Shown here piece by piece: positions 1 through 33,699 of a stretch of DNA of 64,000 nt. The notes under the pieces are model-generated. The model was not told where the DNA came from. It saw only the letters and a list, made by a program, of their open reading frames with translations, and ran no database searches. The stretch is from NCBI RefSeq assembly GCF_003014535.1, contig NZ_PYGD01000005.1, forward strand, positions 62,001-126,000. The letters are read 5' to 3'. A program made the position numbers and the translations under genes. The DNA comes from Taibaiella chishuiensis (GTDB lineage: Bacteria > Bacteroidota > Bacteroidia > Chitinophagales > Chitinophagaceae). Positions within the stretch are counted from its first letter, which is position 1. Each line of letters opens with the position of its first letter.

Positions 1-337
1 CCCGCATCAGGGGCGCCTGCCGGTAATCGAAGGGTTGTTGCCACTGCGCCATGGCCACCTGCATCCAGTCTTCGTTGCCCTGGCGGGGCAATACCTCCAC
101 TGCAGCCTTGGGCGCGGTAGCTGCTATTTCAAAATAAGGCCGTTGCGGCTCATCTTCGCGTATGGCGGCACGCAGCAAAGGATGTTTGACCAGCAAACGG
201 GCAAATGCGGCTTCGATCCGCTCCTGCTGCAGCCGGCCTTCCAGCGTAACCGCGAAAACACAGTTAACGGGCATCGCCCCATTGGCATACATAATGCGTT
301 CTCCGACAATAAGTCTTCTTTTCATAAGGCAATTCAT
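1..337 (-). CDS. Condensation/acyltransferase-like protein (partial, C-terminus outside window)
   Basis: Only about 112 N-terminal residues are visible; the gene continues past the left edge. The visible part parallels the upstream gene almost residue for residue: KRRLIVGERIMYANG against KRKMLFAERMMYNDG, then KHPLLRAAIREDEPQRPYFE against KHPILAAAVQLDDKGMPWFE. It is therefore a second member of the HHxxxDG acyltransferase/NRPS-condensation superfamily, although the catalytic motif lies beyond the window. The stop of the upstream gene and this ATG overlap as TGATG, which implies translational coupling. An in-frame ATG at 325 is an equally good start and aligns better with the paralogue. The role is inferred: ester or amide transfer of an acyl chain made by the synthase encoded upstream in the operon. 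Confidence 0.75.
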   Translation of the reverse strand, partial: MNCLMKRRLIVGERIMYANGAMPVNCVFAVTLEGRLQQERIEAAFARLLVKHPLLRAAIREDEPQRPYFEIAATAPKAAVEVLPRQGNEDWMQVAMAQWQQPFDYRQAPLMR

Positions 338-1620
338 CAGGATTGAGGCTGCAGTTGTAACAGCAGGCCGGTAAGCATATCTTTTATAGCTTCGGCTTCG
401 GTATAGGGTATATACCCTTCGCTGGACACGAAGCTGAAATCCAATTGATTTTTAAACGTAGAAGCAATAAGCGTCGTCGGGTTGCCCAGCGGACCTATTA
501 CCGAAGGACTGAAAATCGTATCTACTTTAAAGTTCCGGTATTCGTGGGGGATATTCAGCAAGCCCATATTGGAAAACATACAGTCGTTGCTCGATTTGCC
601 GTATTTCAGGAAATCGATCATACGTGGCAGTACGGCATGCGCCTGTTCGAACATCATCAGCGAATCGTAAGCATTGAGTTTGGCGGTGCGTTTGGTCGCC
701 AACTCCTGCATGCGTTGTGCCCTGGCTGTAAAATCGAGGCCTGGCGTTTTATCCATAGAGAGTACCAGCATCAGGCCAAAGGCAAACATCGCATCTTCCC
801 GGATAGCCGGTGCATACCGGCGGATCTCCACGGGGCAGGTAATTTTATTAAATGCATTTTTGCCCCGCACTACGTCAAAAGCAGTGAGCACGGCCAGGCT
901 GATGGCCGTGTTGACCGTTACACCGGCGGCTTTACATTGCCGGAGCAGGTTCGTGGTTTCGGCTTCTGATAGCTTCCAGTTCAACAGGTAATCCTGCCCG
1001 CGGTCCCGGGCTTTCTTTTTTAAAGGCAGGGCATGTAACAGCAGGTAACCTGCCTTGCCCAGCACCCGGGCCTTAATCTTCTTAGTCCGGTTACTCAGTA
1101 CGGCAAGCGGCACCACATCTTCCAGCCGGGTAAATACCTGTTCGGTACCGATATCGGCGCCCGGCTCGTCCAGCAACAGGAGCAATTCCCGTACCAGCGC
1201 CACCGCCGAGCCGCCATCGCACATACAATGATGAAAGACCATCAGCAGTTCCGAAACCGAAGCGCCCTGTATCCATACCAGCCTGATCAAAGGGCCGCTG
1301 CCCGTATCGAACGCGGTATTCCATTCCTTTACGGTTTCGGTATGCCAGGTATCTTCCCGGTCGCGCATCACGGTCCTTACCGGTATGGCAGCATGATGCG
1401 CCGCGCTTTCGAACCAGGGCATGCCTTTATCGTCGAGCTGTACCGCAGCGGCCAGTATGGGATGCTTTTGCTGCAACCGTCCAAGCGCATGCTGCAACTG
1501 GCTTTCGGTAAGCGCACCCTGTATCCGCAAGGGAAACAGGCCGTTGAACGGGGTTATACCATCGTTATACATCATGCGTTCAGCGAACAGCATTTTCCTT
1601 TTTATACGGGGTTCAGTCAT
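337..1620 (-). CDS. HHxxxDG acyltransferase (condensation / PapA5-like superfamily)
   Basis: This 427-residue protein carries HHCMCDG at residues 130-136. That matches the HHxxxDG catalytic motif of NRPS condensation domains, PapA-type polyketide acyltransferases and related CoA- or ACP-dependent acyltransferases. The second His is the usual catalytic base. It is a free-standing single domain with no carrier protein or adenylation domain, so an ester-forming transferase is more likely than a peptide synthetase module. The C-terminal region with FSNMGLLNIP is typical of the second chloramphenicol-acetyltransferase-like lobe. The start overlaps the end of the upstream glycosyltransferase by 8 bp. 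The acyl donor is probably the ACP-bound product of the polyketide synthase and the acceptor may be the sugar added by the glycosyltransferases; both are inferences. Confidence 0.85.
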   Translation of the reverse strand: MTEPRIKRKMLFAERMMYNDGITPFNGLFPLRIQGALTESQLQHALGRLQQKHPILAAAVQLDDKGMPWFESAAHHAAIPVRTVMRDREDTWHTETVKEWNTAFDTGSGPLIRLVWIQGASVSELLMVFHHCMCDGGSAVALVRELLLLLDEPGADIGTEQVFTRLEDVVPLAVLSNRTKKIKARVLGKAGYLLLHALPLKKKARDRGQDYLLNWKLSEAETTNLLRQCKAAGVTVNTAISLAVLTAFDVVRGKNAFNKITCPVEIRRYAPAIREDAMFAFGLMLVLSMDKTPGLDFTARAQRMQELATKRTAKLNAYDSLMMFEQAHAVLPRMIDFLKYGKSSNDCMFSNMGLLNIPHEYRNFKVDTIFSPSVIGPLGNPTTLIASTFKNQLDFSFVSSEGYIPYTEAEAIKDMLTGLLLQLQPQS

Positions 1621-2824
1621 GGATCATCGCTGGTTTTGACATGGTTTCGGCAGTAAAATTTTCAAGCAGGGATATGGCTTTGGCACTACCGCCTGCCGCT
1701 ATAAAGGTGTCGCGCACCTGCAATGCGGCTTGCCGGAACTGCGGCTCACGCAGTAAGCGCCATACCGCTTCGCGTACATCAGGCACCCGCATCCGCTTGT
1801 AACGGATCTTTAGCCCGCAGCCCGCCTTTTCGATCAATGCCGCCGTATGAAAATGATCGTAGGCAATAGGTGTGATGAGCATAGGCAGGCCGTTCATAAA
1901 AGTATCGTTCACCGTATTGAAGCCGCCATGGCAGATTACGGCATCCATATGGGGCATCAGTTCCGACTGCGGTACAAAGCCCTGCACGATAAAGTTGTCG
2001 GGCCAGGCATCGATCACCGCCGGATCGGTAGCCGCGATGATCGTAAGTGGTTCATCGCGGAAGGCTTCGACCAGGCGGGTAAAAAATTCTTTACGGATAT
2101 CGACCAGTAAAGTGCCCAGCGATACGAAGACCTTTGGCGTAGTTACCCGCGACAGGCGTTCCCAATCGAAGGGCGCATGGTTAGGACGACCCTGTACGGG
2201 GCCTACAAAATGCATATGCGGCTCCGGATCGGTAAAACCTGCGAAGGCGGCGGAGGTAAAGACGATATTCATTTTATGGGAATGAACAAAAATGCCCTCT
2301 TCTTCGATACCCACCCCATATTGCAGATCGCGGATCAGCTGTTGTTGCCAGGCATATACTTTAGGCGCCTGGTTGGCCGTATCTCCCATTACATCGGGTG
2401 GTACGGGTGTTGTGGTTACACAGGGTATGCCTTTCTTATAAGCAGCCAGTGCACCGGCAAAAGCGATGCAGTCGTTCACGATCACATCCGGTTGCCACTC
2501 GTCGATAACGCGCTCCAGGCCCGGCATCATGATCCGGGCTATGGGTATATACGTTTCTTCGAGCGCCAGTCGCATAACCTCCGGGCCAGACAGGGAAGGG
2601 CCGTCATCCTGTCGTTTTAAAATGGCGGCAACCTGCTCCCGGCAGGGTTCCAGCTCTTTTTCCGGAACTATAAAAACACCGCCATCGGGCAGGTGCTCCT
2701 GTTGTACCGGAACAATGCCCAGCCAGGCTACCTGGTGGCCCCGGGCGATAAGACCCGCGCCCACGCTGAGCGTAGGACTCAGGTGTCCGAAAAAAGGCGG
2801 TACGACAAATAAGTATCTCGACAT
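1613..2824 (-). CDS. GT1-family glycosyltransferase (UGT/MGT, CrtX-like)
   Basis: This 403-residue protein has the two-Rossmann GT-B layout of family GT1. The N-terminal acceptor half opens with PPFFGHLSPTLSVGAGL. The C-terminal donor-binding half has CHGGFNTVNDTFMNGLP, where HGG binds the nucleotide-sugar phosphates. The pattern resembles zeaxanthin glucosyltransferase (CrtX) and macrolide glycosyltransferases, which put glucose or a related hexose on lipophilic hydroxyls. No carotenoid synthesis gene is present here, so the acceptor is more likely the lipid or polyketide made by this operon. The gene sits 8 bp after its paralogue, consistent with an ordered pair of glycosyl additions. The sugar donor cannot be read from the sequence. 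Confidence 0.88.
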   Translation of the reverse strand: MSRYLFVVPPFFGHLSPTLSVGAGLIARGHQVAWLGIVPVQQEHLPDGGVFIVPEKELEPCREQVAAILKRQDDGPSLSGPEVMRLALEETYIPIARIMMPGLERVIDEWQPDVIVNDCIAFAGALAAYKKGIPCVTTTPVPPDVMGDTANQAPKVYAWQQQLIRDLQYGVGIEEEGIFVHSHKMNIVFTSAAFAGFTDPEPHMHFVGPVQGRPNHAPFDWERLSRVTTPKVFVSLGTLLVDIRKEFFTRLVEAFRDEPLTIIAATDPAVIDAWPDNFIVQGFVPQSELMPHMDAVICHGGFNTVNDTFMNGLPMLITPIAYDHFHTAALIEKAGCGLKIRYKRMRVPDVREAVWRLLREPQFRQAALQVRDTFIAAGGSAKAISLLENFTAETMSKPAMIHD

Positions 2825-2832
2825 AGTATCAA

Positions 2833-4053
2833 TTAATATGCAGCGGTTGTTGCAGCAGCAAGGACCGGCGCATTGCGGGTAAATAATGTTTCTAAATGTG
2901 CAGCGGCGGTCTTTACGCCACCCGTGGCTTCAAATGAGGTACGGATAAGGTTTGCAGCGTTACGGAAGTGATCCTCTGCCAGCACCTGCAATACCGCATC
3001 TTTAAGATGATGCGCCTTAAACCGGTTGAAATTGAGCCGCAGTCCCGCTCCTACCCTTACTACCCTGCCCGCTACATGCGACTGGTCGTAGGCAATAGGG
3101 ATCACGACCATAGGCAGACCATGGCTCAGGCTTTCGCATACCGTATTGTGTCCGCCATGACAGACAACAGCCTGCAGCTGCGGCAACAGCTCCAATTGCG
3201 GCACCCGTTGCTGTATCATAAAATTGGAGGGTACGGTATCGAACAGTTCGGGATCGGAGACGACCACAACACTCAGCTCCGTATCGCCAAAGGCTTCTGC
3301 TACTTTAGCAAAGAACTGCCGCTTATGTTCATGATCGAAGGTGGTACCGATGCTGACCAGTATTCGGGGTTGTGGCATCTGCTGAAAAGCTTGCCAATCG
3401 AAGGTTGCAGCCACTTTACGGTTAGCGATTACCGGCCCCACGAACCGGAAGGGATCCGGGAGGGCCATCTCGCCGAAAAAAAGTTGCGAAGTAAACACCA
3501 GCGTTAATGCATCCGAACAATCGAGGCTTTGCTCCCCGGGCCAGCCCAACTCCTTTTGCAAGGCCACGATCTGCTGTTGCTCCCATTCGTGTACCTTGGG
3601 CAGCTCCTGCATGACCTTGATGGCGGCAGGGGCCGTAACCGAAGTGGCATACGGAATATTGAGCTGTCGTGCAGCCACAGCGCCTGCAAACATCTGGTGA
3701 TCGGCAATCGCCACGTTGGGTGCGAACTGCAGCAATTGCTCCCGGATACCGGCGTACATATAGCGGTTCAGGGGTACCAGCACTTCTTCGTAAAGAAATT
3801 TAATACTGTCGATACCATATACGCTTTTGCGGGTAATGATATCTAGATAAGCTTCCGTCTCCTGCTTTTCAGCATCGCTGCTGTCGTAGCGGATCAGCAG
3901 CAATTGCCCGCCCGCAGGCAGTTTGTCCTGCAGGGCCGGGTCCAGGCTGATCCAGCCTACCTCGTGCCCCCGGTCCAGCAATTCGCTGCCCAGGCTTAGT
4001 GTGGGATTGATATGCCCGGTAAGGGGCGGTACTATAATAGCAAATTTTGCCAT
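2833..4053 (-). CDS. GT1-family glycosyltransferase (second copy)
   Basis: This 406-residue protein is a paralogue of the following gene. It opens with IVPPLTGHINPTLSLGSEL, and its C-terminal donor motif is CHGGHNTVCESLSHGLP followed by VIPIAYDQ. The family transfers sugars from UDP- or dTDP-sugars to lipophilic acceptors in the cytoplasm. The two copies are clearly diverged, with different loops between residues 150 and 260, so they may add different sugars or act at different positions. The ATG lies 27 bp after the alpha/beta hydrolase stop, in the same transcription direction. Assignment to the polyketide pathway rests on operon position. Confidence 0.88.
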   Translation of the reverse strand: MAKFAIIVPPLTGHINPTLSLGSELLDRGHEVGWISLDPALQDKLPAGGQLLLIRYDSSDAEKQETEAYLDIITRKSVYGIDSIKFLYEEVLVPLNRYMYAGIREQLLQFAPNVAIADHQMFAGAVAARQLNIPYATSVTAPAAIKVMQELPKVHEWEQQQIVALQKELGWPGEQSLDCSDALTLVFTSQLFFGEMALPDPFRFVGPVIANRKVAATFDWQAFQQMPQPRILVSIGTTFDHEHKRQFFAKVAEAFGDTELSVVVVSDPELFDTVPSNFMIQQRVPQLELLPQLQAVVCHGGHNTVCESLSHGLPMVVIPIAYDQSHVAGRVVRVGAGLRLNFNRFKAHHLKDAVLQVLAEDHFRNAANLIRTSFEATGGVKTAAAHLETLFTRNAPVLAAATTAAY

Positions 4054-4080
4054 GTCCGTTTTTGTAGTAAATCGTTTTAG

Positions 4081-4857
4081 CTATACCATCGCCACCTCGG
4101 CGCAGAGAAACTGCGAAAGGCTGGCGGCTACCTGTTCGGGGGCCTGTACCGGCACGTTATGATCACCTTCAATCTCCTGTAATACAGCGCCGGGTATCCG
4201 TTGCGCCAGGAAGTAGCCGGCCTGCAGGCAATTGGAACGGTTGCCATAGATCAGCAAAGGCTGATGGATTAACGCCCTGATACCGTTATCAGCGAAAAAA
4301 CCGCGCTCCGCCAGCATATCCTGTTTGATGGAGGTCTGGTAAAACAGGTATTCGTACATCCTGTGATTGCGCTCCAGCTGCCGTTTGCCCATCTGCACGC
4401 GGGTAGTATCGGTAAAGTTGCTGATATAATGCTCCAGGAATTCCCTGCTGTAATCATCGATAATACCACGGGTCTTGTCGTCGGCCGGATCGGGCGCTTC
4501 GATCATCGCCAGGCCGTTGATCCGCCCCGGGAAGCGCATCGCCGTTTTCAGACTGATCAGTGCACCGAAGCTGTAGCCGACCAGGTGTACCCTGCCCAGG
4601 CCCAGGCCGTCGATCAATGCCAGCAGGTCGTCGCTCATGGTATCGAGGTCATAACCGCCGGGCGATCTTTCGCTCATGCCATGGCTTTTAAGGTCGTACA
4701 GCACCACATGAAAGTGCGCAGCCAGCACCGGTGCTATATTGAAATAATAAACAGAGAGGTTGCTGAACATGCCATGTACCATCACAACCGTCTCCGCGGC
4801 GCCCTTATTGAGCTCCTGGATATGTACTGCTTTCCCGTTGATCTGTATTAGCGGCAT
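4081..4857 (-). CDS. Alpha/beta hydrolase (possible thioesterase or acyl-releasing enzyme)
   Basis: This 258-residue single-domain alpha/beta hydrolase has an oxyanion HG at 28-29 (MVHGMF), the nucleophile elbow GYSFG with Ser96, and a terminal catalytic His near residue 233 (EGDHNVP). It lacks a signal peptide and is cytoplasmic. The start overlaps the upstream ACP gene by 10 bp, so it is translated together with the carrier protein. No thioesterase domain exists in either megasynthase of the operon. The economical inference is therefore that this enzyme releases or proofreads the finished acyl chain. A role as an ester hydrolase on the glycosylated product is an alternative. Family assignment is secure; the pathway step is a guess from context. 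Confidence 0.8.
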   Translation of the reverse strand: MPLIQINGKAVHIQELNKGAAETVVMVHGMFSNLSVYYFNIAPVLAAHFHVVLYDLKSHGMSERSPGGYDLDTMSDDLLALIDGLGLGRVHLVGYSFGALISLKTAMRFPGRINGLAMIEAPDPADDKTRGIIDDYSREFLEHYISNFTDTTRVQMGKRQLERNHRMYEYLFYQTSIKQDMLAERGFFADNGIRALIHQPLLIYGNRSNCLQAGYFLAQRIPGAVLQEIEGDHNVPVQAPEQVAASLSQFLCAEVAMV

Positions 4858-5147
4858 ACGCTGATATAATTAATAATATCGTTAAGGTTGAGGTTGATCA
4901 GCTGATCGAGGTCCATACCCGATAACCAGCCTGTAAAATCGATATGCTCCCCGAAATGCGCTTTTACCTTTTCGGAAAAAGCAACGATCTCGATGCTGTC
5001 CATTTCGAGGTCGCGGGTAAAGGAGCTGGAAGGCTGGATATCCATCTCTTCCACGAACTCTTCGCCGATCACTTCGGTAATGAACTGTTTTAAAAGATCA
5101 AAAATTGCTGTGGCAGCAGCCTGGTTGCCCGTTGTTACAGTGTCCAT
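4848..5147 (-). CDS. Stand-alone acyl carrier protein
   Basis: This 99-residue ACP has the phosphopantetheine attachment site DSIE at Ser51 (RDLEMDSIEIVAFSEKV). The start chosen (MDTVTTGNQ) overlaps the end of the synthase gene by 13 bp. A longer reading frame begins at 5201, but it would bury 67 bp inside the phosphopantetheinyl transferase domain and adds a low-complexity N-terminus. It is the third carrier site of the operon after the tandem pair in the large synthase. The sequence differs from those two (LSIDSIKRMEI), so it probably serves a different step, for example holding the finished chain for transfer to the acyltransferases. The fused transferase encoded just upstream could activate it. 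Confidence 0.85.
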   Translation of the reverse strand: MDTVTTGNQAAATAIFDLLKQFITEVIGEEFVEEMDIQPSSSFTRDLEMDSIEIVAFSEKVKAHFGEHIDFTGWLSGMDLDQLINLNLNDIINYISVCR

Positions 5148-8100
5148 CCTATGATATAGTTTTTGTATTGAATTGTTTGAATTTGTGTATCGTTGATCCA
5201 TAACCGGTCTTCTGTTATCCGGGTCACTTCGTATGCCCTGGGATTACCGCGGAGTCCCTGTCCCAGCATTTTGCCATAAGCTTCTTTAGCCACCCACAGG
5301 CGTGTGCTCCATTCGGCTGCCTCTCTATCCGCCACCAGCCGGCGTTCGGCATCGGTAAAGGAGAGCCGCATAAAACCTTCGGTGCGCGCTGCGATCAGCT
5401 CGATATCGATGCCCACCGGGCGGCCGTTTGCCGCAATGGCTACGGCATCGGTACCCTTATGCGCCAGCGATACCTGTATGCCCGCCACAGCATCGCCGCT
5501 TACAAAGGGTTGCCCGGTATCCTGCCTGCCGGTAGGGAAGGTGATGGGAAAACAGGAATACGCTTTTTCCTTTTGCAACAAGGCCCGTACCGCATCTTTC
5601 AGGGCTACCCTGCTGATCATCCATTCTTTTTTCTTAGCCGGTGTCAGCGACTGGTAATATTGTTTTTCCTCCTGGTTAAAATAACGTTTCAGGATAAAGT
5701 CCCAGCTTACCATACGGGTATAGGCATTGCGGAACATAAATACACCGGGAGCGATCTCTTCGGATAAAAGATTATGCAATGGCGACATGGATACTTTCCA
5801 TAATGCTTCATCGATCTCCAGCCTTCGGTTTTGCCAGCCGGTAATAATGGCCCAGGTCTTGCCGTTGCGTTTCATGATGATATTGGCCGTAGCAAATTCA
5901 TCGTTCAGGGCCGTCAGCACACAGGTACAGTCAAACAGGCCTTGCTGGTCCTGCATATCGCCATAGAAGGCGATTTCCTGGATCTTAACCGGGAATGCGA
6001 TACGGTCTTTGGTAAGCGTTAACTGTAACCATAAGCCGAACAACTGCCCCGCATTATCCAGCAGCGAGCCTTTACCGCCTGCACCCCGTATGTTGCCTGT
6101 TATGCCTTTGTCGCCTACCCTCGTAACGGAAACGATACCCTGATAAGCCGGTCCGTGGAACATGTGCTCCTCATAGATCTTAGCGGGGCTGGTGCTTATG
6201 CCCAGATCGGTACCGGTATCTTCATCGATTTGCGGCGCGGCCGGCAATACACCGGCCAGGAGCACTTCTGCAGCGGCATAACGCTCCAGGTCCAGCATAG
6301 CCCGTCCGGGTGCTTTCCAGCTGCCTTGAATGGTCTCCCGGAACGGTTGCGCCACATTCATCCATTGCAGTACTTTTGTATTTAAGATCTTATGCACCTT
6401 GCTGCCCGGGACCTGTGCCGCGGCTGCCTCGCCGAACAGCTCAAAGATCATCGTCATCGGGATTACAGGGTCCATGTCCTGCACACAGGGCCAGTCTTTA
6501 GGTTGCCGCAGTAAAGCATGGTCTATGAGATAGGCATGATTGGTAAGATTTATATCGAGTTGTTGCGTAAAAGGTTGGTTCTCCGGTTCCGGTTGTATCG
6601 CCTGCATCACCACAGCAGGTAAAGGCTGTTCGCCGGAGGGGATAGTCCGGTTGCGGAATAAAACCATCATATCTTCCTGCATACGGATCAGTTCGTCCAC
6701 ATTATCCTGCATGGCCTGCATTACCGGGTGCGCCACATCGGCCATCGACAGCTCGGGCCTTGTTGCAACCGGCCTGGTATGCTGTGCCAGTTCCCGTAGC
6801 GCGGGCCAGTTCTTTACCAGGGGCAGTCCTAATGCCAGCTGTATGCCTTTTGCCGGAGGTTGTTGCTGTTGCTCATCGATTCCGAGAAAAGCCAGGTCCA
6901 CCGCGCGGCCTTCGGCAAACAAGGCGGCTAATACGCGTTGTAACTGCGCTATACCGCCACGGATGGGCACACTGGAGGCAATGGCACTATAGCTTTTGCC
7001 CTTGAGCGTATCGTCGATAAAGCCGGTAAGTCCACCCGATCCGACCTGGATAAATACCCGGGCCCCTTCGTCATACAGTTTAAGGATCAGCTCGCGGAAG
7101 CGTACCGGTTGTACCAGGTGCTCCACGCTTAGTTTTTTTATAGCCTCGAAATCGTCAGGATAGGTTTCCAGGGTAGTTGCGGACCAGAGCGGGATCCTGG
7201 TTTTCTGGAAACGCATCGTATCCATACCCTTGAGCAGCACATCCAGTTTGCCGGCTACGAAGGGCGAGTGAAACCCGGACTGGAAGGGCAATACCTGGTG
7301 AAAGACCTGGCGGGCTTTCAGTATCGTTGTCAATTGTGCGATAGCCGCAGGGCTGCCGCAAAGGATGACCTGGCTGGGACAGTTATCGTTGGAAAGATAA
7401 AGCTCCGGTATGCCGGCGATAATAGGCGCCATTACATCCAGGCCACAACCAACGGCAACAAACCGCGAATCTTTCAGGTCAAAGGTTTCGGGGTCCAGCA
7501 TATCCAGCAACTGCATCACCGACTCTTCTGCCGCCAGTTCCGACGACCTGGCAGCCAGCCATTCGCCTAGACTGTGCCCGGCATTCATATCCGATATAAT
7601 ACCCAGGCGTTTTACGGCGGTATCCAGTATGCTGCTTCGCTCCAGCACCAGTAAGGCCTGGTTCAGCAAACCCTCTCCCATGGCGGATTGCAGCGGTAGG
7701 CCAAAATGAGCGGCAACGCTTTCTATTTCGCCACCGGCCAGGCCGTCGAGACCCGGGAACACAAAAGCAAGCTGCGCATCGTTGCGTAACAGGGGCTCGT
7801 TGGTAAACCAGATATCCTGTTTGTTGCGCCAGGCTTTGTCTTTACTTACGATCTTTATGGCTTTAGCCAGGCGCTCGGGTGTAGGATCAAACAGTGCAAT
7901 CCGGTAATCGCCGGCGCCTATATGGGTTTCGCCATCGGTAAGCGCCTGGAGCAACCCGGCTTGCGTAGTGCGTGCCAGTAACAACAGTTTATCGGCGTGT
8001 GTTACTACGCTCTTTATTTCGTTTTGTCGCGTATAACCTTCCAGTACCACATGGGCATTAATACCGCCGAAGCCGAATGCATTCACACCGGCATAATGTT

Positions 8101-9409
8101 TTAGCCCGCTATCGCTCCAGGACACAGGCTCAGACACGGGACTAAAGCGGGTTTCGACCATCAGGCCGAGGGGTTGCCGGCAATGCAGGGTCGGTGGTAA
8201 AGTATCGTGGTATAAGGCCAGCGCTGTTTTGATGAGCCCGGCAATACCCGCTGCCGGCATAGCATGACCAATATTGGATTTAACACTGCCGATGCCCGCT
8301 TTGGGCTGTCCATCCTCTTGCCGCCCAAAAACCTGTTGCAGGGTTTCCAGTTCCGTTTTATCGCCGAGCGGCGTACCGGTGCCATGCGCTTCGATATACC
8401 CGACCTCTGCCACATCGATGCCAGCCTGGTTCCAGGCCTGTTGTATCGCTTTTACCTGGCCTTTTACCGCCGGGCTCATCACGCTGGCCCCGCTGCCATC
8501 GCTACTTACGCCTACGCCCCTGATCACCGCATAGATCTTATTTTGGTCCTTTATCGCTTCATCGAGCTTTTTAAGGATCACAAAACCGCAGCCTTCGCCG
8601 ATCAGCAGACCATCGGCTTCCTGGTCGAAGGGCCGTATCTCCTGTTTACGGGAGAGGGCGCCTAATTGGTTAAAGATGCTCCAGAAGGCAGCGTTCTGCG
8701 CCACATGTACGCCACCGGCAATCATCATATCGCAGCGGCCGCTGTTAATTTCCTGTATGGCCTGGTCTACGGCCAACAGCGAGCTGGCACAGGCTGCATC
8801 TACGGTGTAGGCCGCGCCACCCAGGTTCAACCGGTTGGCCACAAGCGAGGCCACCAGGTTAGGGATCAGGCCCATGGCCGTATCCGGGCCAAAGCGGCCT
8901 TTACGTTCCTGGTATTCCCTTTTTACTTTTTCTATCTCGCTTTCGGCCAGTGCCGGCAATGCATGACGTAGCACCTCCGCGATCTGTTCGCCGGTGCGTA
9001 CGATCTCGATTGCCCGGGTAGCGCCGGGACCGGCATAGTTGCCTTTCCCGATAATGATACCGGTACGTTCCAACTGCTCTTTGTGTTGCAGTACACCCGC
9101 ATCTTCAAGCGCCTTACAGGTAAGATCGAGGGAGAGCAACTGGTCGGGCTCCATACCCGCAACAGCCAAAGGCAATATACCGAACCGTACAGGGTCGAAG
9201 GTAACCGCGGGTATAAAACCGCCCCGGTTACAATAAAAACGGTCGGCGGCAGTAGTAGTATTATCAAAATACAAAGCATCCAGGCGCTCGTCCGGAACCG
9301 CTTGTATGGCGTCTTTTTTTGTGACTATGTTTTTCCAGAACGCGGCAAGGTCTGCTGCGCCCGGGAAAATGCAGGACATCCCGATTATGGCAATATCTGT
9401 CTGGCTCAT
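5135..9409 (-). CDS. PUFA/secondary-lipid synthase subunit: KS-AT-DH-PPTase
   Basis: This 1424-residue protein starts with a complete ketosynthase (about 1-460; Cys207 in DAACASS, His342 in EAHGTGT, His382 in SNIGHA). An acyltransferase-like domain follows (about 545-830) with GHSLGEW (Ser613) and GFHSP (His714), but its first motif reads FPGLDG where GQGSQ is usual. A double-hotdog dehydratase-like region (about 945-1195) has FHGPAYQG and LLDNAGQ (Asp1118); its first-half motif is DHALLRQP, lacking the glycine of HxxxGxxxxP. The C-terminus (about 1285-1424) is a Sfp/AcpS-type 4'-phosphopantetheinyl transferase with GIDIE (Asp1335, Glu1337) and WVAKEAYGK (Glu1376). There is no carrier domain, so it must act on the ACPs of its neighbours. 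The gene begins 80 bp after its partner. Confidence 0.93.
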   Translation of the reverse strand: MSQTDIAIIGMSCIFPGAADLAAFWKNIVTKKDAIQAVPDERLDALYFDNTTTAADRFYCNRGGFIPAVTFDPVRFGILPLAVAGMEPDQLLSLDLTCKALEDAGVLQHKEQLERTGIIIGKGNYAGPGATRAIEIVRTGEQIAEVLRHALPALAESEIEKVKREYQERKGRFGPDTAMGLIPNLVASLVANRLNLGGAAYTVDAACASSLLAVDQAIQEINSGRCDMMIAGGVHVAQNAAFWSIFNQLGALSRKQEIRPFDQEADGLLIGEGCGFVILKKLDEAIKDQNKIYAVIRGVGVSSDGSGASVMSPAVKGQVKAIQQAWNQAGIDVAEVGYIEAHGTGTPLGDKTELETLQQVFGRQEDGQPKAGIGSVKSNIGHAMPAAGIAGLIKTALALYHDTLPPTLHCRQPLGLMVETRFSPVSEPVSWSDSGLKHYAGVNAFGFGGINAHVVLEGYTRQNEIKSVVTHADKLLLLARTTQAGLLQALTDGETHIGAGDYRIALFDPTPERLAKAIKIVSKDKAWRNKQDIWFTNEPLLRNDAQLAFVFPGLDGLAGGEIESVAAHFGLPLQSAMGEGLLNQALLVLERSSILDTAVKRLGIISDMNAGHSLGEWLAARSSELAAEESVMQLLDMLDPETFDLKDSRFVAVGCGLDVMAPIIAGIPELYLSNDNCPSQVILCGSPAAIAQLTTILKARQVFHQVLPFQSGFHSPFVAGKLDVLLKGMDTMRFQKTRIPLWSATTLETYPDDFEAIKKLSVEHLVQPVRFRELILKLYDEGARVFIQVGSGGLTGFIDDTLKGKSYSAIASSVPIRGGIAQLQRVLAALFAEGRAVDLAFLGIDEQQQQPPAKGIQLALGLPLVKNWPALRELAQHTRPVATRPELSMADVAHPVMQAMQDNVDELIRMQEDMMVLFRNRTIPSGEQPLPAVVMQAIQPEPENQPFTQQLDINLTNHAYLIDHALLRQPKDWPCVQDMDPVIPMTMIFELFGEAAAAQVPGSKVHKILNTKVLQWMNVAQPFRETIQGSWKAPGRAMLDLERYAAAEVLLAGVLPAAPQIDEDTGTDLGISTSPAKIYEEHMFHGPAYQGIVSVTRVGDKGITGNIRGAGGKGSLLDNAGQLFGLWLQLTLTKDRIAFPVKIQEIAFYGDMQDQQGLFDCTCVLTALNDEFATANIIMKRNGKTWAIITGWQNRRLEIDEALWKVSMSPLHNLLSEEIAPGVFMFRNAYTRMVSWDFILKRYFNQEEKQYYQSLTPAKKKEWMISRVALKDAVRALLQKEKAYSCFPITFPTGRQDTGQPFVSGDAVAGIQVSLAHKGTDAVAIAANGRPVGIDIELIAARTEGFMRLSFTDAERRLVADREAAEWSTRLWVAKEAYGKMLGQGLRGNPRAYEVTRITEDRLWINDTQIQTIQYKNYIIGWTL

Positions 9410-9489
9410 GTAAACATTCTGGCTTTGGACAACAGCAATGGAACAACCTTGCTGCGCCCGGGTAATTATGATTGGGAACGGATGCGGGC

Positions 9490-12400
9490 TTACCAGGTAT
9501 CACCAGCCATGATCAATACCTGGCTTTCGTTACCGTATTTCAATTCTTCTACAAAACGCTCCAGTCCATCTTCCAGCGGGATCATTGCGATACCCCTCCG
9601 GTCATATTCTTTTTCCAGCGAGGCCGAAACCATACCGGCGCCTTTCCAGGGGCCCCAGTTGATCGCGGTTACCCGGCCTTTGATTTTTTCCTTCAGGGCC
9701 CAGGTATAACGGTCCATAACACTGTTGGCCGCCGCATAGTCGGTCTGGCCCCGGTTACCGTATACCGATGCGATACTGCTGAACAGGACCACGAACTGTA
9801 CATCTGCTCTCAACTCTTCGATCAGCACGCGCAGAGGCGTTACCTTGGTGGTAAATACGCGTTCGAAAGATGCTGCGGTTTTATGTTGAAAAAGTTTGTC
9901 TTCCAGCAAACCGGCACCATGTATTACACCGTCGATACGGCCATGATCTCGGTATACCTCGTGTATAAAATCGCGCAGGGCCGGCTCGTCCCTCAGGTCA
10001 AGCGAGCGGTAGGTAACCCGGGCGCCGTTGCGTTGCAATGCCTGTATCGTTTGCAGGATCTGGTTATGCTTAAACAGCTCCTGTGCTTTCTTTTCGATCC
10101 CGGCAGGCGATTTCAATACCCCTTCCGCAATCAGCTGTTTCCTGATCTCTTCCTTCGTATTGCAGGCTGTATACCGGCCATCGTTGTGCTGCTGCGGATC
10201 GGGCGAACGACCCACCAGGATATAATGACAGGGATAGTCTTTTGCGAACCGGTTGGTCAACTCCGCAGTAATGCCCTGCGCACCGCCAAACACCAGTACT
10301 ACGGCCTCTTTGTCCAGGTCGGGCATTGCCGCACCGGCACTACGGACCAGGTCTGCAGGCACCAGGTTATAATAATGTCTTTCCGTACCCCGGTACACTA
10401 TTTCTGCAGGAGCATCGGTATACAACAATTCCTGTAATACGATCCGGGCAAAGGCTTCGGGCTCCAGCACCGACTGCAGGCTGATCATGCGGCATCGGGT
10501 CTGCTCCAGCTCGCGGTCGAGGCTCTTCATCAGACCGGGGTAGCCCTGGTAACGACGCAGCATTTTAAGATCGCCCTGCTGGTTCATATGCCCTGTAAGA
10601 TCGCTGAAGGTAAAGATCCAGGATGCCTTTTCGGGGTTGAGTTTTTTTATAAGGGAAAAACCCTCCATAATGTTATAAAGCCGGGCAGAGGCGTGCGCGT
10701 TGATAATGATCAGCCCATCGTATTGCTCCAGGTTATCGTCCATGGTTACTAAACTGGCAATTGCTCCCTGTGCTTCGAGCACCTGTTTTACGGCGATCGA
10801 AATCAGCCCCTCATCGTCGGTGATGGCCAGGCGCCGCCCCTGCAGTAATCCGGGGTCGGCCGTCGCCGTTTGTGCGGCGGTTATTTCAAAACGCATTCTC
10901 GATATCCTGCTTGCTGCATGTTTATATTCCGGTTTAATACCGTCGTCGATAATCTGTTGCGCCTCTTCGACCGGGCTGGGGTTACGGCCCTCGTTCAACC
11001 AGCCCAGCAAACCGCTCAGGGTTTTAATGGCTGCCAGTTGCTCCATCATATCCTCTTCGTTACCGTCGCTGCCGCTCCAACCTATTGCCAGTTGCAGGGC
11101 GCCGATAATCTCCATGCGTTTAATGGAGTCGATGCTCAGGTCGGCTTCCAGGTCGAGCTCGAGCCCCAGCATATCGACCGGGTATCCCGTCTTGTCGCTT
11201 ACCGTCTGTAATAGTATAGAACGCAGGTCGAATGCAGGTTGCGCTGCAGGCTGCACTGTGGCCGGTTCCGCCTGTGCCGTATTTGTTTTGATCCAGCCGA
11301 TCAGGCTATTTAAGGTTTTGATAGCAGCCAGTTGTTCCATCATCTGCTCTTCTGCCGCTCCCGAGGTATTAAAACCACCCAGGCGATCCCGCAACTCCCC
11401 GATAATCTCCATGCGTTTAATAGAATCGATGCTCAGGTCGGCTTCCAGGTCCATTTCCAGTCCCAGCATCTCGTTGGGATAACCGGTTTTATCGCTGACT
11501 ACATCGAGCAGCAGCGCCTTTACATCGGTAACTGCCACGGGTAAGGAAGCCGCCGGTGCCGCCATCATCGTTTGTGCCGGGGCAACGGGAATTACCGGTT
11601 GCGGTTGGACAACTGGCATTGTATTCAGGTGCATAGGGGCAGTCGTCACCGGCTGTCCCAGGTAGCTCATCATGACGTCCCGCTGGGCCTGGATCATCAT
11701 TTTCATACCATTCAGGTATTCCAGCATCATTTGATCGGCAGCAGCAGTATGCCCTTGTGTCATAGTAACGGTTTGATGATTGAGTTGAAGAGGTTGTACG
11801 ATAGGTAACGCGCCATGCGCCGGTAGTTTGCCGGAGGCGGGCAAGGCCTTATGCCCATCCACATGCCAGAGTGCAGGGCTTTTACGGTAGCGCTCCGGTT
11901 CGTCGATCATTACCTGGCGGGTATTCCGGTCTTTAAACAACTGTTGCAACTGAACGGTACGGCCCGTAGCCTGGTAAGCCGCGATCGTGCCCAGCAGGAA
12001 GCTTATACCGCCCTGGTCCTTTTCTTCGGTATGCAATACCAACTCGTCCTTACCCAGGATCGAACGGGTAAGACCGGCCAATACTTTACCAGGGCCGGTT
12101 TCTATAAATACCCTGGCGCCGGCTGCATACATCAGTTCTATTTCTTCGGTAAACCTTACCGGTTGTACCAGGTGCTCCGCCAGTCTTTCTTTGATCGCTT
12201 GCGGTGCTGCCGGGTATACACCGGCGGTAGTATTCGACCATACCATCAGCTTCGGCGTATGGAAAGGTACCTGCTCCAGGGCTGTTGCAAACAAGGCTTT
12301 GGAACCCGACAGCAGCGGACTGTGGAAGGCGCAGGCTACCGGCAATTGTTTGAACGATATCTTTTCTGCCTTCATGCGTTCCATCAACTGTTGCATAGCG

Positions 12401-15400
12401 GCTGTAGTACCGGCCAGCACCGCTTGTTTGGGTGCATTAAAGTTAACGGCCCATACCTCAGGTTCGTTTTCGATAAGTTGGGCCAGCGCATCGGCAGGCA
12501 GGCTTACCGCCGCCATAATACCCTTATCGTCGCCCACGGCGTCGAGAATGGACTGCGCCCGCGCCGCGCTCAGGCCCACCAGCTCCGCGGCGTCGAAAGC
12601 ACCGGCAAAACACAGGGCCGGCAACTCTCCGTAACTATGACCGGCCACCATGTCAGGCACAATACCTAATGATTTGAGGTATTCGGCAATGGCCAGGTCT
12701 ACAATGCCCAATAAAGGCTGGGCATTACGGGTATCTTTTATCCGTGCTGACTGCGCTTCGCGTGCTGCATCGCTAAAGACCGCATCGGGAAACAGGACTT
12801 GCCCGTAGTGCTTATGCGTGGCCAGCAGGCGCCGCATAACCGGGAAGGCCACGAACAGCTCCCGGGCCATATCGATACGCTGGCTGCCTTGTCCTGAAAA
12901 AAGGAAAGCAAGCTTGCCTTCTTTCTTTTGTGTACGATATACACCGGCGGGCGCAAGTCCCTGTGCGGCTGCCGACATGCGGTCGAGCAGTACAGCAGCA
13001 CTGCCGGCTACAATGCTCAACTGTACGGGCATTTCGTTGTATACCGCCAGGCTGTAGGCAATATCTCTTAAACTTATGGTATCGTTGCTCTGCAACAACG
13101 CCGTTACTTTGTCCATTACCTGCAGCGCTTCCTCCATGGTGGTGCCGCGGAACACGAAAAGCTCGGCCGGCCAGGCTTCCAGCGCTGTAGCATCCGGTGT
13201 GGCCTTGTGGCTTTCGAGCACGGCATGGAAATTGGTACCACCAAAACCGAAGGCACTGATGCCCGCCCGGCGCAGGCTATCGGTCCAGATGCCGGCAGCG
13301 GCGTTAAAGGCAAAAGGACTGGTGGCGGCATTGAAATAGGCATTGGGTTGTTGCAGGTGTATGGTAGCGGGTTTTACTCCGTGGTATACCGCCAGGCTGG
13401 CTTTAATAAGCCCGGCAAGCCCTGCAGCGCATTTAGTATGACCAATCTGGGTCTTTACCGATCCCAGGTGGGTTTGTGCCGGCAAGGCGCCGGCATGCAA
13501 CAGCATATCCGTAAGTGCACTAAGCTCGGTTTTGTCGCCTACTACGGTACCGGTACCATGCGCCTCCAACAGGCCCAGGCTGGCCGGCGATATGCCCGCC
13601 TGTTCGTAGGCGCGCTCCAGGGCGCTGATCTGGCCTTTCTTACGGGGTGCGGTCAGTCCAAGGCTTTTGCCATCGCTGCTACCGCCCACCCCCTTTATAA
13701 CGGCATATACCCGGTCGCCATCGCGTGTGGCATCTTCCAGTCTTTTCAAGACCACTATGGCCACACCTTCGCCCAGGGCAATACCGTCGGCCGCTGCGTC
13801 GAATGTAGCGCAGCGCCCTTTGCGGGACAGCGCATGGGTGCTGGAAAACATCAGGTAGTCGTTGATACCGTTGTGGAGATCTACACCACCGGCCAGCACC
13901 ATATCCGACTTTTCGAGTATCAGCTCCTGGCAGGCCAGGTCTATAGCCGCAAGCGACGAAGCGCAGGCGGCGTCTACCGTATAGTTGCGGCCGCCCAGGT
14001 CAAGCCGGTTGGTAATCCTGCCGGAGATCACATTGGCCAGTACACCGGGGAAGGAGTCCTCGGTAAGCTTAGGCAGTGCACGATCCAGCTCAGCGGGCAT
14101 TTCGCCGAATACCTGTTTAAAATAATTCCGGAATCCATAACTGTTGGCCAGGTCGTTGCCGCCTTCGGCGCCCAGGATCACGGATACGTTTTCTGCGTTG
14201 AAGTTGCCGTCTTTATAACCTGCGTTTTCAAGCGCCTGTTTGGCTACCAGCAAACTCAACAGCTGGCTGGGTTCGATAGCAGCAAGCGATTGCGGCGGTA
14301 TACCAAATTCGAGCGGATCGAAATCGATACGCGGGATAAAGCCGCCCCATTTGGAATGCGACATATCTTCCGCATCGGACCTGGGGTTAAAATACAGGGT
14401 TTTGTTCCAACGGTCGTTGGGTACTTCGGTTACGCTGTCGGCGCCCGTAATAATATTACGCCAATAGGTTTCGATATCTTTTGCCCCGGGGTAAATACAG
14501 GCCATGCCCACAATAGCGATGTCCAGCGCTTTACCACGCTTTTCAGGCAGGGCAGGCAATACAGCCTGTTCTATAAACCGGTAAGTAGCTGTTGTTACGG
14601 ATTCGTGCAGTTCGTGCAGGCTCAGGGTATCCTGGTGCATAGCCGTTACCTGCCCGATCATATACATACCGTTGTTCAGTTGTGCGGCAGCATCCAGGTT
14701 TACCAAACCGCTTTGCTGCCGTTCTATACCTTTGGCTGCGATACGCAGGCGGCCTACATTCAGCTCCTCAAGTTGCTTCCAGATCTCTTTCTTATCCAGG
14801 CCTTCGCGGTTAAGGCGTTCTTTTTCTTTATTAAAAAAATCGGCAAAGGGAGAATACAGGCAACGGGTTTCGTGACCCGGCGCCGTTTCCAGCAATACAG
14901 TTTCCTGCTGCCGGATAGCTTGCTGCTGGAATTGTTCCAGCACCGCACCGGTTTGTACCGCCTCATGGGTAAAGATATAAGCCGTGCCCATGAGCACCCC
15001 TACCTTGGCGCCCCTTGCGGTAAGCGGGGCAGACATGACGGCCACAAAGGCCGCGGATAAAGCATCGTGGATGCCACCGGCAAAAAACATACTGGTACCG
15101 GTAAGATCGTCTTCCTGCAACAGGCGTTCGATCTGTTTTTCCCAAAGCACGGTACTGGTAAGCGGACCTACGTGGCCGCCGCATTCCCGGCCTTCGAATA
15201 CAAAATGCCGGGCTCCTTCGCGCAGGAACATATCAAGCAATACCACGGAGGGTACATGCAGGAATACTTTTATGCCGAGCTTTTCCAGCGGCTTGGCCTG
15301 CGAGGGCCTTCCCCCGGCAATAAGCACTACAGGCGGGCATTCTTCCCGTATCAACGCCAATTGTTCCTCGCGCAGTTCGGGCGGCGCAAAACCCAATATG

Positions 15401-16479
15401 CCTACTCCCCAGGTATTGCCGGCCGCCAGGGTCTTGGTTTGGCGTACCAGTTCCTGCGCCTGTGGTCCCTTAAGCAGGCTGAGCGCTACGAAGGGCAAAG
15501 CACCGGCATTGGCTACTGCTGCTGCAAACCCGGGCACATCGCTTACACGGGTCATGGGCCCCTGAGCAATAGGATAAGTAATGCCAAGGTCCTGCGCCAG
15601 CGTATTGCCGGGCCGCAGGGCGTCCTGGGCGCGGGCCTGTTGCAGGTGCCCGTGCATCGCTTCGCGCAGGGCGAATACCAGGTGTTCTATTTTTTTATAA
15701 CGGTTAGCCAGGCTGGCCGCAAAAGCCACGTCCTGTCCCAATGGCAACAGGTTAGTGGTAATATCCCATCCACCGAGCAATGGCCGGATGGACTCAAAAT
15801 CCGCTCCGGCGGGTAATACCGGCGAGTCGGGACGTAACAATACCCTGTAGTTATCGATGATGCGCGTTTCGCTGCCATGCAGTTTTTCCGCTATCTTTTT
15901 AATGGCTTCGGGCGCAGCGCATTCGCGAAACAGCACCAGTTGGCTATCCAGCACCACGCCTTTGGCGCCCAGTGCTTTGGCAGCCGCAGCAGTATGTATA
16001 CCCATACCGCCCTGCAGGTAAATATCGATGTTGTTTACCCGGGCAATAACGCGTTGAAAAAGGATAAAAGCCGACTCTTCGCCTACTTTACCCCCGCTTT
16101 CGTTACCCTTAACGATCAATGCAGCGGCCCCGGCAGCAGCGGCATCTATGGCTTCCTGCAGCGTTGTAACCTGGTATACCCGGCTGATATGCCCCTCCAT
16201 GGGTACAACCGTATGCAGGGACCAGGGTGCAATGACCAGCACTACGTTTTGCGGTAGCAGTACGGGCTCCGGTAAGGCGGTAACCATTTGGATACCGAAA
16301 AGATCACGGTCCTGTTTCGCGATCGTTTCCAACGCCTTAAGAGTTTCATCCGTATTCCAACCCAGGTGTATTACGGGGAAGGCGCCGGCCTTCGATGCGG
16401 CTAAAGCCAGGTGCACATCCGGCTTTTCAAACGGGGAAATAATCAGTATATCGGATTCGGAAAATTTATTGCGCTGCAT
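9490..16479 (-). CDS. PUFA/secondary-lipid synthase subunit: NMO-NMO-KS-AT-ACP-ACP-KR
   Basis: This 2329-residue protein begins with two FMN-type TIM-barrel regions. The first (1-about 270) keeps QGGMGIHTAAAAKALGAKGV but has SGGK (Lys131) where the family has GGH. The second (about 285-620) has ECGGHVG (His436) and FAGGIHDALSA, like PfaD enoyl reductases and nitronate monooxygenases. Next come a full KS (about 650-1095; Cys839, His974, His1014), an AT (about 1190-1490; GQGSQ, GHSYGE with Ser1282, AFHSP), and tandem ACPs with Ser1686 and Ser1785 in LEADLSIDSIKRMEI, the PUFA-synthase carrier signature. A KR ends the protein (about 2055-2329; GGAQGIT, Ser2235, Tyr2248, Asn2252). All domains appear usable except the first barrel. 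It should make iteratively elongated chains, with enoyl reduction supplied in cis. Confidence 0.95.
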   Translation of the reverse strand: MQRNKFSESDILIISPFEKPDVHLALAASKAGAFPVIHLGWNTDETLKALETIAKQDRDLFGIQMVTALPEPVLLPQNVVLVIAPWSLHTVVPMEGHISRVYQVTTLQEAIDAAAAGAAALIVKGNESGGKVGEESAFILFQRVIARVNNIDIYLQGGMGIHTAAAAKALGAKGVVLDSQLVLFRECAAPEAIKKIAEKLHGSETRIIDNYRVLLRPDSPVLPAGADFESIRPLLGGWDITTNLLPLGQDVAFAASLANRYKKIEHLVFALREAMHGHLQQARAQDALRPGNTLAQDLGITYPIAQGPMTRVSDVPGFAAAVANAGALPFVALSLLKGPQAQELVRQTKTLAAGNTWGVGILGFAPPELREEQLALIREECPPVVLIAGGRPSQAKPLEKLGIKVFLHVPSVVLLDMFLREGARHFVFEGRECGGHVGPLTSTVLWEKQIERLLQEDDLTGTSMFFAGGIHDALSAAFVAVMSAPLTARGAKVGVLMGTAYIFTHEAVQTGAVLEQFQQQAIRQQETVLLETAPGHETRCLYSPFADFFNKEKERLNREGLDKKEIWKQLEELNVGRLRIAAKGIERQQSGLVNLDAAAQLNNGMYMIGQVTAMHQDTLSLHELHESVTTATYRFIEQAVLPALPEKRGKALDIAIVGMACIYPGAKDIETYWRNIITGADSVTEVPNDRWNKTLYFNPRSDAEDMSHSKWGGFIPRIDFDPLEFGIPPQSLAAIEPSQLLSLLVAKQALENAGYKDGNFNAENVSVILGAEGGNDLANSYGFRNYFKQVFGEMPAELDRALPKLTEDSFPGVLANVISGRITNRLDLGGRNYTVDAACASSLAAIDLACQELILEKSDMVLAGGVDLHNGINDYLMFSSTHALSRKGRCATFDAAADGIALGEGVAIVVLKRLEDATRDGDRVYAVIKGVGGSSDGKSLGLTAPRKKGQISALERAYEQAGISPASLGLLEAHGTGTVVGDKTELSALTDMLLHAGALPAQTHLGSVKTQIGHTKCAAGLAGLIKASLAVYHGVKPATIHLQQPNAYFNAATSPFAFNAAAGIWTDSLRRAGISAFGFGGTNFHAVLESHKATPDATALEAWPAELFVFRGTTMEEALQVMDKVTALLQSNDTISLRDIAYSLAVYNEMPVQLSIVAGSAAVLLDRMSAAAQGLAPAGVYRTQKKEGKLAFLFSGQGSQRIDMARELFVAFPVMRRLLATHKHYGQVLFPDAVFSDAAREAQSARIKDTRNAQPLLGIVDLAIAEYLKSLGIVPDMVAGHSYGELPALCFAGAFDAAELVGLSAARAQSILDAVGDDKGIMAAVSLPADALAQLIENEPEVWAVNFNAPKQAVLAGTTAAMQQLMERMKAEKISFKQLPVACAFHSPLLSGSKALFATALEQVPFHTPKLMVWSNTTAGVYPAAPQAIKERLAEHLVQPVRFTEEIELMYAAGARVFIETGPGKVLAGLTRSILGKDELVLHTEEKDQGGISFLLGTIAAYQATGRTVQLQQLFKDRNTRQVMIDEPERYRKSPALWHVDGHKALPASGKLPAHGALPIVQPLQLNHQTVTMTQGHTAAADQMMLEYLNGMKMMIQAQRDVMMSYLGQPVTTAPMHLNTMPVVQPQPVIPVAPAQTMMAAPAASLPVAVTDVKALLLDVVSDKTGYPNEMLGLEMDLEADLSIDSIKRMEIIGELRDRLGGFNTSGAAEEQMMEQLAAIKTLNSLIGWIKTNTAQAEPATVQPAAQPAFDLRSILLQTVSDKTGYPVDMLGLELDLEADLSIDSIKRMEIIGALQLAIGWSGSDGNEEDMMEQLAAIKTLSGLLGWLNEGRNPSPVEEAQQIIDDGIKPEYKHAASRISRMRFEITAAQTATADPGLLQGRRLAITDDEGLISIAVKQVLEAQGAIASLVTMDDNLEQYDGLIIINAHASARLYNIMEGFSLIKKLNPEKASWIFTFSDLTGHMNQQGDLKMLRRYQGYPGLMKSLDRELEQTRCRMISLQSVLEPEAFARIVLQELLYTDAPAEIVYRGTERHYYNLVPADLVRSAGAAMPDLDKEAVVLVFGGAQGITAELTNRFAKDYPCHYILVGRSPDPQQHNDGRYTACNTKEEIRKQLIAEGVLKSPAGIEKKAQELFKHNQILQTIQALQRNGARVTYRSLDLRDEPALRDFIHEVYRDHGRIDGVIHGAGLLEDKLFQHKTAASFERVFTTKVTPLRVLIEELRADVQFVVLFSSIASVYGNRGQTDYAAANSVMDRYTWALKEKIKGRVTAINWGPWKGAGMVSASLEKEYDRRGIAMIPLEDGLERFVEELKYGNESQVLIMAGDTW

Positions 16480-20728: not shown

Positions 20729-20732
20729 ATAC

Positions 20733-21545: not shown

Positions 21546-21566
21546 ACCGGCCCCAATACGACGAAC

Positions 21567-22427: not shown

Positions 22428-22428
22428 T

Positions 22429-23364: not shown

Positions 23365-23390
23365 CCCCGATAACTTTTACAATTTTTCCC

Positions 23391-24737: not shown

Positions 24738-24738
24738 T

Positions 24739-25542: not shown

Positions 25543-25560
25543 ACTATTAAAATCAATCGT

Positions 25561-31895: not shown

Positions 31896-31898
31896 GAT

Positions 31899-33688: not shown

Positions 33689-33699
33689 AAAAATTCGGG

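Follow-up and report, generated by a model that had tools for sequence, protein, structure and literature searches.

Shulse & Allen left 14 types of secondary lipid synthase without a product, according to the text of their survey (PMC3098273), which also describes Type N, from Chitinophaga pinensis DSM 2588 and Chryseobacterium gleum, as having an uncharacterised product and a guessed role in resting bodies (PMC3098273, 2011). Beijerinckia indica is named there under Type P, the phenolic lipids, for which product chains of C22–C26 are given (PMC3098273). In the other genus of that type, Azotobacter, the acyl chains go from the acyl carrier protein (ACP) of ArsA to type III polyketide synthases (PKSs) (PMC6274091). 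Type F, the heterocyst glycolipid (hgl) type, has HglC, with a ketoacyl synthase (KS), a chain-length factor (CLF) and an acyltransferase (AT) domain (PMC3098273). Here we compare these systems with an operon of Taibaiella chishuiensis, analysed in a window of 64,000 nucleotides (C5:62001-126000, C5 being contig NZ_PYGD01000005.1 of a 5.84-Mb assembly), in which a two-subunit synthase (A and B) is encoded together with a free ACP, an alpha/beta hydrolase, two glycosyltransferases (GTs), two acyltransferases and a small membrane protein. The comparison connects a fixed nine-gene operon, whose core is also found in Streptomyces, with one product-less secondary lipid synthase type, probably Type N, and the predicted product class is a reduced long-chain, twice glycosylated and acylated lipid rather than a polyunsaturated fatty acid (PUFA). 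The carriers, which include Pedobacter, Chitinophaga, Chryseobacterium and Flavobacterium, are common and culturable.

Eight of the genes lie within the window, all on the minus strand between positions 1 and 16479, and read leftwards from 16479 in the order A-B-ACP-hydrolase-GT_a-GT_b-AT_a-AT_b, with intergenic gaps (A/B through AT_a/AT_b) of 80, -67, -10, 27, 8, -8 and -1 bp. The operon extends left of the window with the remainder of AT_b, followed by the small membrane protein. Domains were called using Pfam and NCBIfam scans, re-run up to E 10; open reading frames (ORFs), Pfam matches and gap lengths bore out the gene set, single strand and tight packing claimed in an earlier note on this DNA.

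Relatives were obtained from a genome-contig search with B, and 80 of 116 confirmed relatives, all Bacteroidota by their record titles, were scored for gene order by the best BLAST match of mechanically predicted ORFs. The complete order A-B-ACP-hydrolase-GT-GT-AT-AT-membrane protein was present in 71 of the 80 loci with the core genes on one strand, although in two of these (L049 and L069) one of the acyltransferase frames is split in two. Because so many loci keep the whole order, the gene arrangement is more than chance, and the synteny in other Bacteroidota that the earlier note had named as its check was found. The nine exceptions include two loci at contig ends (L071 and L102), one with broken frames (L111), and five without a detected membrane protein (Mucilaginibacter L037 and Dyadobacter L085, L086, L088 and L095); in L086 the hydrolase and ACP frames also overlap and are thus listed in swapped order. 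A further exception, L099 from Filimonas, has a single acyltransferase frame of 643 aa. The operon is real and conserved and probably functional. Its occurrence is patchy: at E <= 1e-20 it was detected in 4 of 395 genomes sampled from the phylum, 7 of 294 from the family and 1 of 4 from the genus, in overlapping samples that each included the genome studied here. The natural reading of this pattern is gain or transfer of the whole block, or frequent loss.

Subunit A (9490..16479, minus strand; 2329 aa) has the domain order NMO1-NMO2-KS-AT-ACP-ACP-KR, based on Pfam, NCBIfam, alignment and modelling, where NMO1 is a degenerate nitronate monooxygenase domain, NMO2 a FabK-like enoyl reductase (ER) and KR a ketoreductase. 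Pfam alone matched NMO (three stretches), KS, AT, ACP (two stretches in the scan up to E 10) and KR. The alignments of A and B comprise 79 rows, the window plus 78 of the 80 loci; the truncated L102 and the fragmented L111 were dropped. The GGH site has a role in FabK and NMO enzymes; its histidine is gone from NMO1 in 79/79 rows (Leu 32, Lys 21, Arg 14, others 12), and the NMO2 motif EGRECGGHVG, GGH histidine included, is invariant in all of them. Equally constant are the Cys-His-His of the KS, the Ser-His of the AT together with the malonyl-type Arg (an arginine that binds malonyl), the DSIKR motif in each of the two ACPs, and the Tyr of the KR, each kept in 79/79 rows. In structure predictions made from 29 alignment rows each, the model of the tandem NMO region (mean pLDDT 87.1) was matched best by FabK structures (4.6e-17), with PfaD structures far lower (from 1.8e-7 among the matches listed).

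Subunit B (5135..9409, minus strand; 1424 aa) was resolved by Pfam, alignment and modelling into KS-AT-DH-PPTase, i.e. a dehydratase (DH) of the PKS-type double hotdog kind and a phosphopantetheinyl transferase (PPTase) behind a second KS-AT pair; Pfam itself recognised the KS, AT and PPTase. Cys-His-His of the KS, Ser-His of the AT and Asp/Glu/Lys of the PPTase are identical in 79/79 rows. The position of the malonyl Arg in the AT, however, is Leu in 79/79 rows (four of them with an adjacent Arg), and the malonyl-type Arg is also missing from the AT of a Streptomyces counterpart of B (see below). Its absence suggests that the AT of B has a role in priming or transfer rather than in malonyl loading. 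The DH region gave no Pfam match in the scan up to E 10, but its predicted structure (mean pLDDT 73.6, dropping below 50 at either end and over three internal stretches) matches PKS dehydratases; the best structural match (5.9e-13) was an MAS-like synthase, and the PpsC and curacin DHs were among the 50 matches listed. His964 and Asp1118 are invariant in 79/79 rows, and we take His964 to be the catalytic DH residue.

The synthase shares with PfaA-E a KS-AT-ACPn-KR core and a PPTase, and A passed the PfaA model TIGR02813 (1038.8 bits against a cut-off of 1010.1; 2170.4 bits for a Persicobacter PfaA control). When the genomes of four relatives were searched with this model, 0/4 were over the cut-off, the best reaching 700 bits with matches covering part of the model only. 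The description of the synthase as PUFA-like in the earlier note therefore stands at the family level but does not extend to PfaD, CLF or a FabA-like domain. For PfaD-type ER, TIGR02814 was not listed for either NMO at E <= 10, while an Azospirillum control protein scored 607.7 bits against a cut-off of 449.25. No KS-CLF pair was found, each protein having a single KS stretch with Cys-His-His in 79/79 rows, and no FabA-like dehydratase/isomerase was recovered as a PF07977 match in the scan up to E 10, the DH model fitting PKS dehydratases instead. Furthermore, the KS domains fall outside the PfaA-like branch of the KS tree (see below). A canonical PUFA synthase was rejected on the grounds that the ER is FabK-like and not PfaD, and that neither a CLF nor a FabA-type dehydratase was found.

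These features also bear on the possibility that the chain made is polyunsaturated or a polyene and goes on to be glycosylated and esterified, an explanation to which the pass on the PfaA model and the tandem ACPs with DSIKR would lend themselves, as would a DH that may work without the ER in some cycles. Set against the lack of detected PfaD, CLF and FabA-like dehydratase/isomerase, a sole DH predicted to fold as in PKSs, and a built-in FabK-like ER with an invariant GGH, we regard this explanation as improbable. The chain is instead likely to be reduced rather than polyunsaturated, since, of the architectures found, the one of a Type P (phenolic-lipid) operon comes closest; of the "unsaturated or reduced chain" in the earlier note, the reduced alternative is thus the likelier, and the polyene is unsupported.

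The Type P kinship emerged from a search of plasmid records with the tandem NMO, which returned 15 records; three cover at least 80% of the query (two from Streptomyces and one from Beijerinckia indica), and a Methylosinus record covers 79%. The Beijerinckia plasmid protein aligns with A across tandem NMO-KS-AT (40.5% over A11-1547) and ACP-KR (over A1654-2324), and its gene is followed by two type III PKS-like genes (one scanned and belonging to the chalcone/stilbene family, the other identified by annotation) and a gene for a DH-PPTase protein, Bi_D, that matches B948-1422 at 28% (E 8e-42). We presume the first and last of these to be ArsA- and ArsD-like, respectively. The operon thus resembles Type P in its tandem NMO-KS-AT-ACP-KR subunit, a likeness that refers to the Beijerinckia alignment and not to Azotobacter ArsA itself, in the partner protein with PKS-type DH and PPTase, and in the long acyl chain to be expected. 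It differs in that the Beijerinckia partner is a 629-aa protein without KS-AT, whereas B has the additional pair, and in that the Beijerinckia operon has two type III PKS-like genes in place of the ACP, hydrolase, GT1s and acyltransferases. The scans of the Bacteroidota operon genes showed no type III PKS; flanking genes that recur across the 80 loci were compared as unannotated families.

A closer counterpart with the same gene order was found on a plasmid of Streptomyces sp. NBC_01243, comprising A (46% over A1-1771), B (37% over its full length), ACP (28%), hydrolase (32%) and a GT. This operon differs from that of Bacteroidota in having one GT, of the DQ kind defined below and with 36.7% identity to GT_a against 32.9% to GT_b, a methyltransferase next to it, and no acyltransferase homologue in the stretch read (best tblastn E 2.3). 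The second strain, Streptomyces NBC_00984, is known here only as matches to A and B. A KS tree of 32 rows, including the window and six of the 80 loci (7 A and 7 B rows from Bacteroidota), was used to place the two subunits. Five of its rows are ungrouped and six have unusual composition, and among the rows labelled pfaA only that of Persicobacter was scanned with TIGR02813. Bacteroidota A grouped with Streptomyces A (100/98) and Bacteroidota B with Streptomyces B (100/99); the A group widened to include a Rhodobacteraceae row (93/85) and then the Ars-like pair (94/92), and the PfaA-like KSs formed a separate branch (100/99). The pairing of A with A and B with B leads us to conclude, from these sequences, that the A+B pair is shared as a unit by Bacteroidota and Streptomyces, via common descent or block transfer. 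The best reading of the synthase is that it is nearer the phenolic-lipid (Ars, Type P) lineage than the canonical PUFA lineage. A Rhodobacteraceae plasmid, of strain SC52 (L134), carries a more distant synthase that aligns with the NMO2-KS-AT-ACP-KR part of A and was not matched by a simple KS active-site pattern; nearby are a dioxygenase of the TauD type, a methyltransferase and a protein with a match to the AT-DH-PPTase part of B, and this may be another secondary-lipid-like locus.

With respect to what is already described, the synthase is probably the Type N catalogued in 2011 in the text of PMC3098273. In Chitinophaga pinensis YS-16, both matches to the PfaA model at E <= 1e-100 fall in the operon studied here, making this identity probable; it rests on the match of taxa (the same phylum and genera) and on that single C. 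pinensis locus, rather than on the domain-order figure of the paper. The Type N text names no GT, acyltransferase, free ACP or hydrolase (PMC3098273). One relative appears within a region listed in 2023: antiSMASH region 2.2 of C. herbae (hglE-KS/T1PKS/terpene, 495,527-554,653), reported without a similar known cluster (PMC10459008), contains L065 (NZ_JAOAMU010000002.1, 512,548-536,777) if the contig numbering is identical. An hglE-KS/T1PKS region without a known match is also reported for Sphingobacterium thalpophilum (PMC11446778), independently of any match to the operon. The hglE-KS label given to a relative by antiSMASH, the PUFA-related synthase and a glycosylated lipid are points in common with hgl (Type F); the operon is set apart from it by the absence of a CLF and by its built-in ER, a distinction drawn from the description of HglC rather than from an hgl sequence. 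Among the matches listed in open-licence PMC literature, no characterised product was found for the operon, which is no proof of absence. The claim that the pathway is undescribed therefore holds for the product but not entirely for the synthase, given the probable entry of 2011 (PMC3098273) and the relative listed in 2023 (PMC10459008). We came across no mention of the operon context, Ars-type kinship, Streptomyces counterpart or invariant DQ/DH pair of the GTs in PMC3098273 or in the later listings.

Downstream of B, the free ACP (DSIEI; 4848..5201, minus strand) scored 20.2 bits with the PP-binding model, slightly below the cut-off of 20.8. It is 117 aa long from its first ATG, and 72 of 79 homologues in the alignment (window and 79 loci) measure only 98-102 aa (99 aa: 51; 98: 12; 102: 9), so this ATG, the basis of the -67 bp gap, may be too early and the true start further in. 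The alpha/beta hydrolase (4081..4857, minus strand; 258 aa; Pfam and alignment) retains its nucleophile Ser and His in 78/78 rows (window and 77 loci, length filter 240-300 aa) and is possibly a chain-releasing thioesterase. Since the Streptomyces stretch has the hydrolase and a GT but no acyltransferase homologue, comparison of the two operons suggests glycosylation of the released chain as the core step.

The two GT1 glycosyltransferases, GT_a (2833..4053; 406 aa) and GT_b (1613..2824; 403 aa), both on the minus strand and called by Pfam (UDPGT-type), NCBIfam and alignment, share 35.6% identity. Both keep His14 near the N-terminus and Asp118, and the donor box of GT_a ends in DQ and that of GT_b in DH, each in 79/79 rows (window and 78 loci; L071 and L102 are without GTs). 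In plant UGTs, Gln or His in the donor box goes with glucose-type or galactose-type donors, respectively. By analogy, the plant rule would mean a glucose-type donor for GT_a and a galactose-type donor for GT_b. The GTs are fused into a single protein of ∼800 aa in 32 of the 78 loci that have them, namely every one of the 22 Chryseobacterium and 4 Flavobacterium loci and 6 of the 8 from Sphingobacterium, whose other two are cut by contig ends. Both GTs matched the macrolide MGT model TIGR01426 (192.5 and 166.4 bits) under its cut-off of 260 and thus fall outside that family as defined. These sub-cut-off matches, and a patchiness (4/395 and 7/294 genomes) like that of secondary-metabolite clusters, speak for a secreted glycosylated polyketide antibiotic, in which MGT-like GTs and acyltransferases would decorate a diffusible compound. 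We nevertheless find an antibiotic hard to credit, as the characterised kin produce lipids and no transporter, regulator or resistance gene is fixed as a neighbour: in the flanking stretches read (at the median ∼2.9 kb ahead of the core and ∼3.4 kb behind it, but nothing in some loci), none of the non-core families, all unannotated, occurred in more than 11 of the 80 loci. The glycolipid idea of the earlier note fits, as GTs and acyltransferases accompany the synthase across loci that carry ten different genus or family labels (by record titles).

AT_a (337..1620, minus strand; 427 aa), a PapA5/condensation-like acyltransferase by Pfam (condensation-type) and NCBIfam, carries HHCMCDG, an instance of HxxxDG, the catalytic motif of PapA5. 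AT_b, of the same kind and strand, is cut at the window edge (2..337, 112 aa; whole gene C5:60856-62337, or L115:16856-18337) and reads PHCICDG in the contig, so that of the two HHxxxDG acyltransferases claimed earlier only AT_a has that form. The difference is conserved: in the 65 loci with two acyltransferases, the first is HHxxxDG in 65/65 and the last PHxxxDG in 59 and AHxxxDG in 6, and in 12 loci with three frames (two of which contain split frames) the first is HH in 12, the last PH in 12, and the middle HH in 6 or without the motif in 6. Neither reached the NCBIfam PapA5 cut-off of 396 bits (AT_a 36.2, AT_b 23.2). The full AT_b has 493 aa, compared to 423 aa in the nearest relative and mostly 414-439 aa across the 80 loci (first and last frames pooled); the extra length is accounted for by an exact internal tandem repeat with a period of 186 bp and identity over 194 bp, either a real duplication or an assembly artefact.

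The small membrane protein (C5:60291-60869, left of the window; 192 aa) follows AT_b and has two hydropathy segments in the T. chishuiensis genome and 2-4 in 72 matched homologues. Because the 643-aa acyltransferase of Filimonas zeae (L099:17714-19645) itself carries two predicted C-terminal membrane segments, the small membrane protein is suggested to work together with the acyltransferases. PapA-type enzymes accept acyl chains from PKSs, and a route without a free acid is conceivable in which the PapA5-like acyltransferases move the chain directly from the ACP onto a sugar or glycoside that the two GTs have assembled, in the manner of mycobacterial acyltrehaloses, and the hydrolase serves as a proof-reading thioesterase. 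A capsule-type locus lies directly downstream, as would suit this route. Yet the Streptomyces stretch, in which ACP, hydrolase and GT occur without any acyltransferase homologue, speaks against it, and we consider such direct transfer unlikely.

On balance, we lean towards an Ars-like iterative type I synthase that makes a long, mostly reduced acyl chain, followed by two glycosylations and acylation. The PPTase of B would activate the ACPs, the malonyl-type AT of A would load the tandem ACPs for condensation by the KS, and the chain would be reduced by the KR of A, the DH of B (in trans) and the second NMO of A (FabK-like, using FMN); the product would be a long acyl or hydroxyacyl chain, saturated for the most part. 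The extra KS-AT of B may serve priming, late elongation or hand-over. The chain would then move to the free ACP for release by the hydrolase; GT_a, as the core GT, and then GT_b would add two different sugars, AT_a and AT_b would attach acyl groups, and the small membrane protein may help hold or move the product at the membrane. The data show which genes are present and in what order, their conserved active sites, the predicted folds of the DH and NMO regions and the relationships of the operon; in this scheme we infer the chain length and saturation, the order of release and glycosylation, the sugars, the acyl groups and the location. More tentatively, a mobile five-gene core (A-B-ACP-hydrolase-GT), common to Bacteroidota and Actinomycetota, could make an unseen class of very-long-chain glycolipids, to which Bacteroidota would have added a second GT preferring a different sugar and a pair of acyltransferases, yielding an acylated diglycosyl lipid located in the outer envelope.

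Several points weigh against a reduced, Ars-like glycolipid. The family-level PUFA kinship of A is real, given its TIGR02813 score, and the Ars-like placement with A (94/92) is below the star threshold, with just seven A and seven B Bacteroidota rows in the tree. His958 of the DH, where the PKS motif might be sought, is His in only 36/79 rows; the ER may not act in every cycle, so that double bonds could remain; and the chain length is not fixed by any data here. GT1 enzymes of the GT_a/GT_b type glycosylate antibiotics too, the internal duplication could impair AT_b, and no product was found for the Bacteroidota operon or the Streptomyces one.

Upstream of A, a non-coding stretch of 872 bp (16480..17351, minus strand), AT-rich at 30% GC, presumably holds the operon promoter, although two regular expressions for the Bacteroidota promoter consensus found no match there. 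Within the window no Rfam match at gathering score and no tRNA were found. The capsule-type genes downstream, beyond the membrane protein, include CpsB, a sugar transferase and export functions. Two other loci were noted in the window. On the plus strand, genes at 20700-27986 appear, by eye and from their first residues, to encode a sugar cytidylyltransferase, a transketolase in split halves, an SDR and a HAD-type phosphatase, possibly an acidic-sugar locus. Lastly, at 30624-35220 on the minus strand, a pair of neighbouring ketoacyl-synthase genes and the genes for a FabA-like hotdog protein and a membrane protein of the LNT/nitrilase type appear, from their sequences, to form a separate small type II lipid-type locus.

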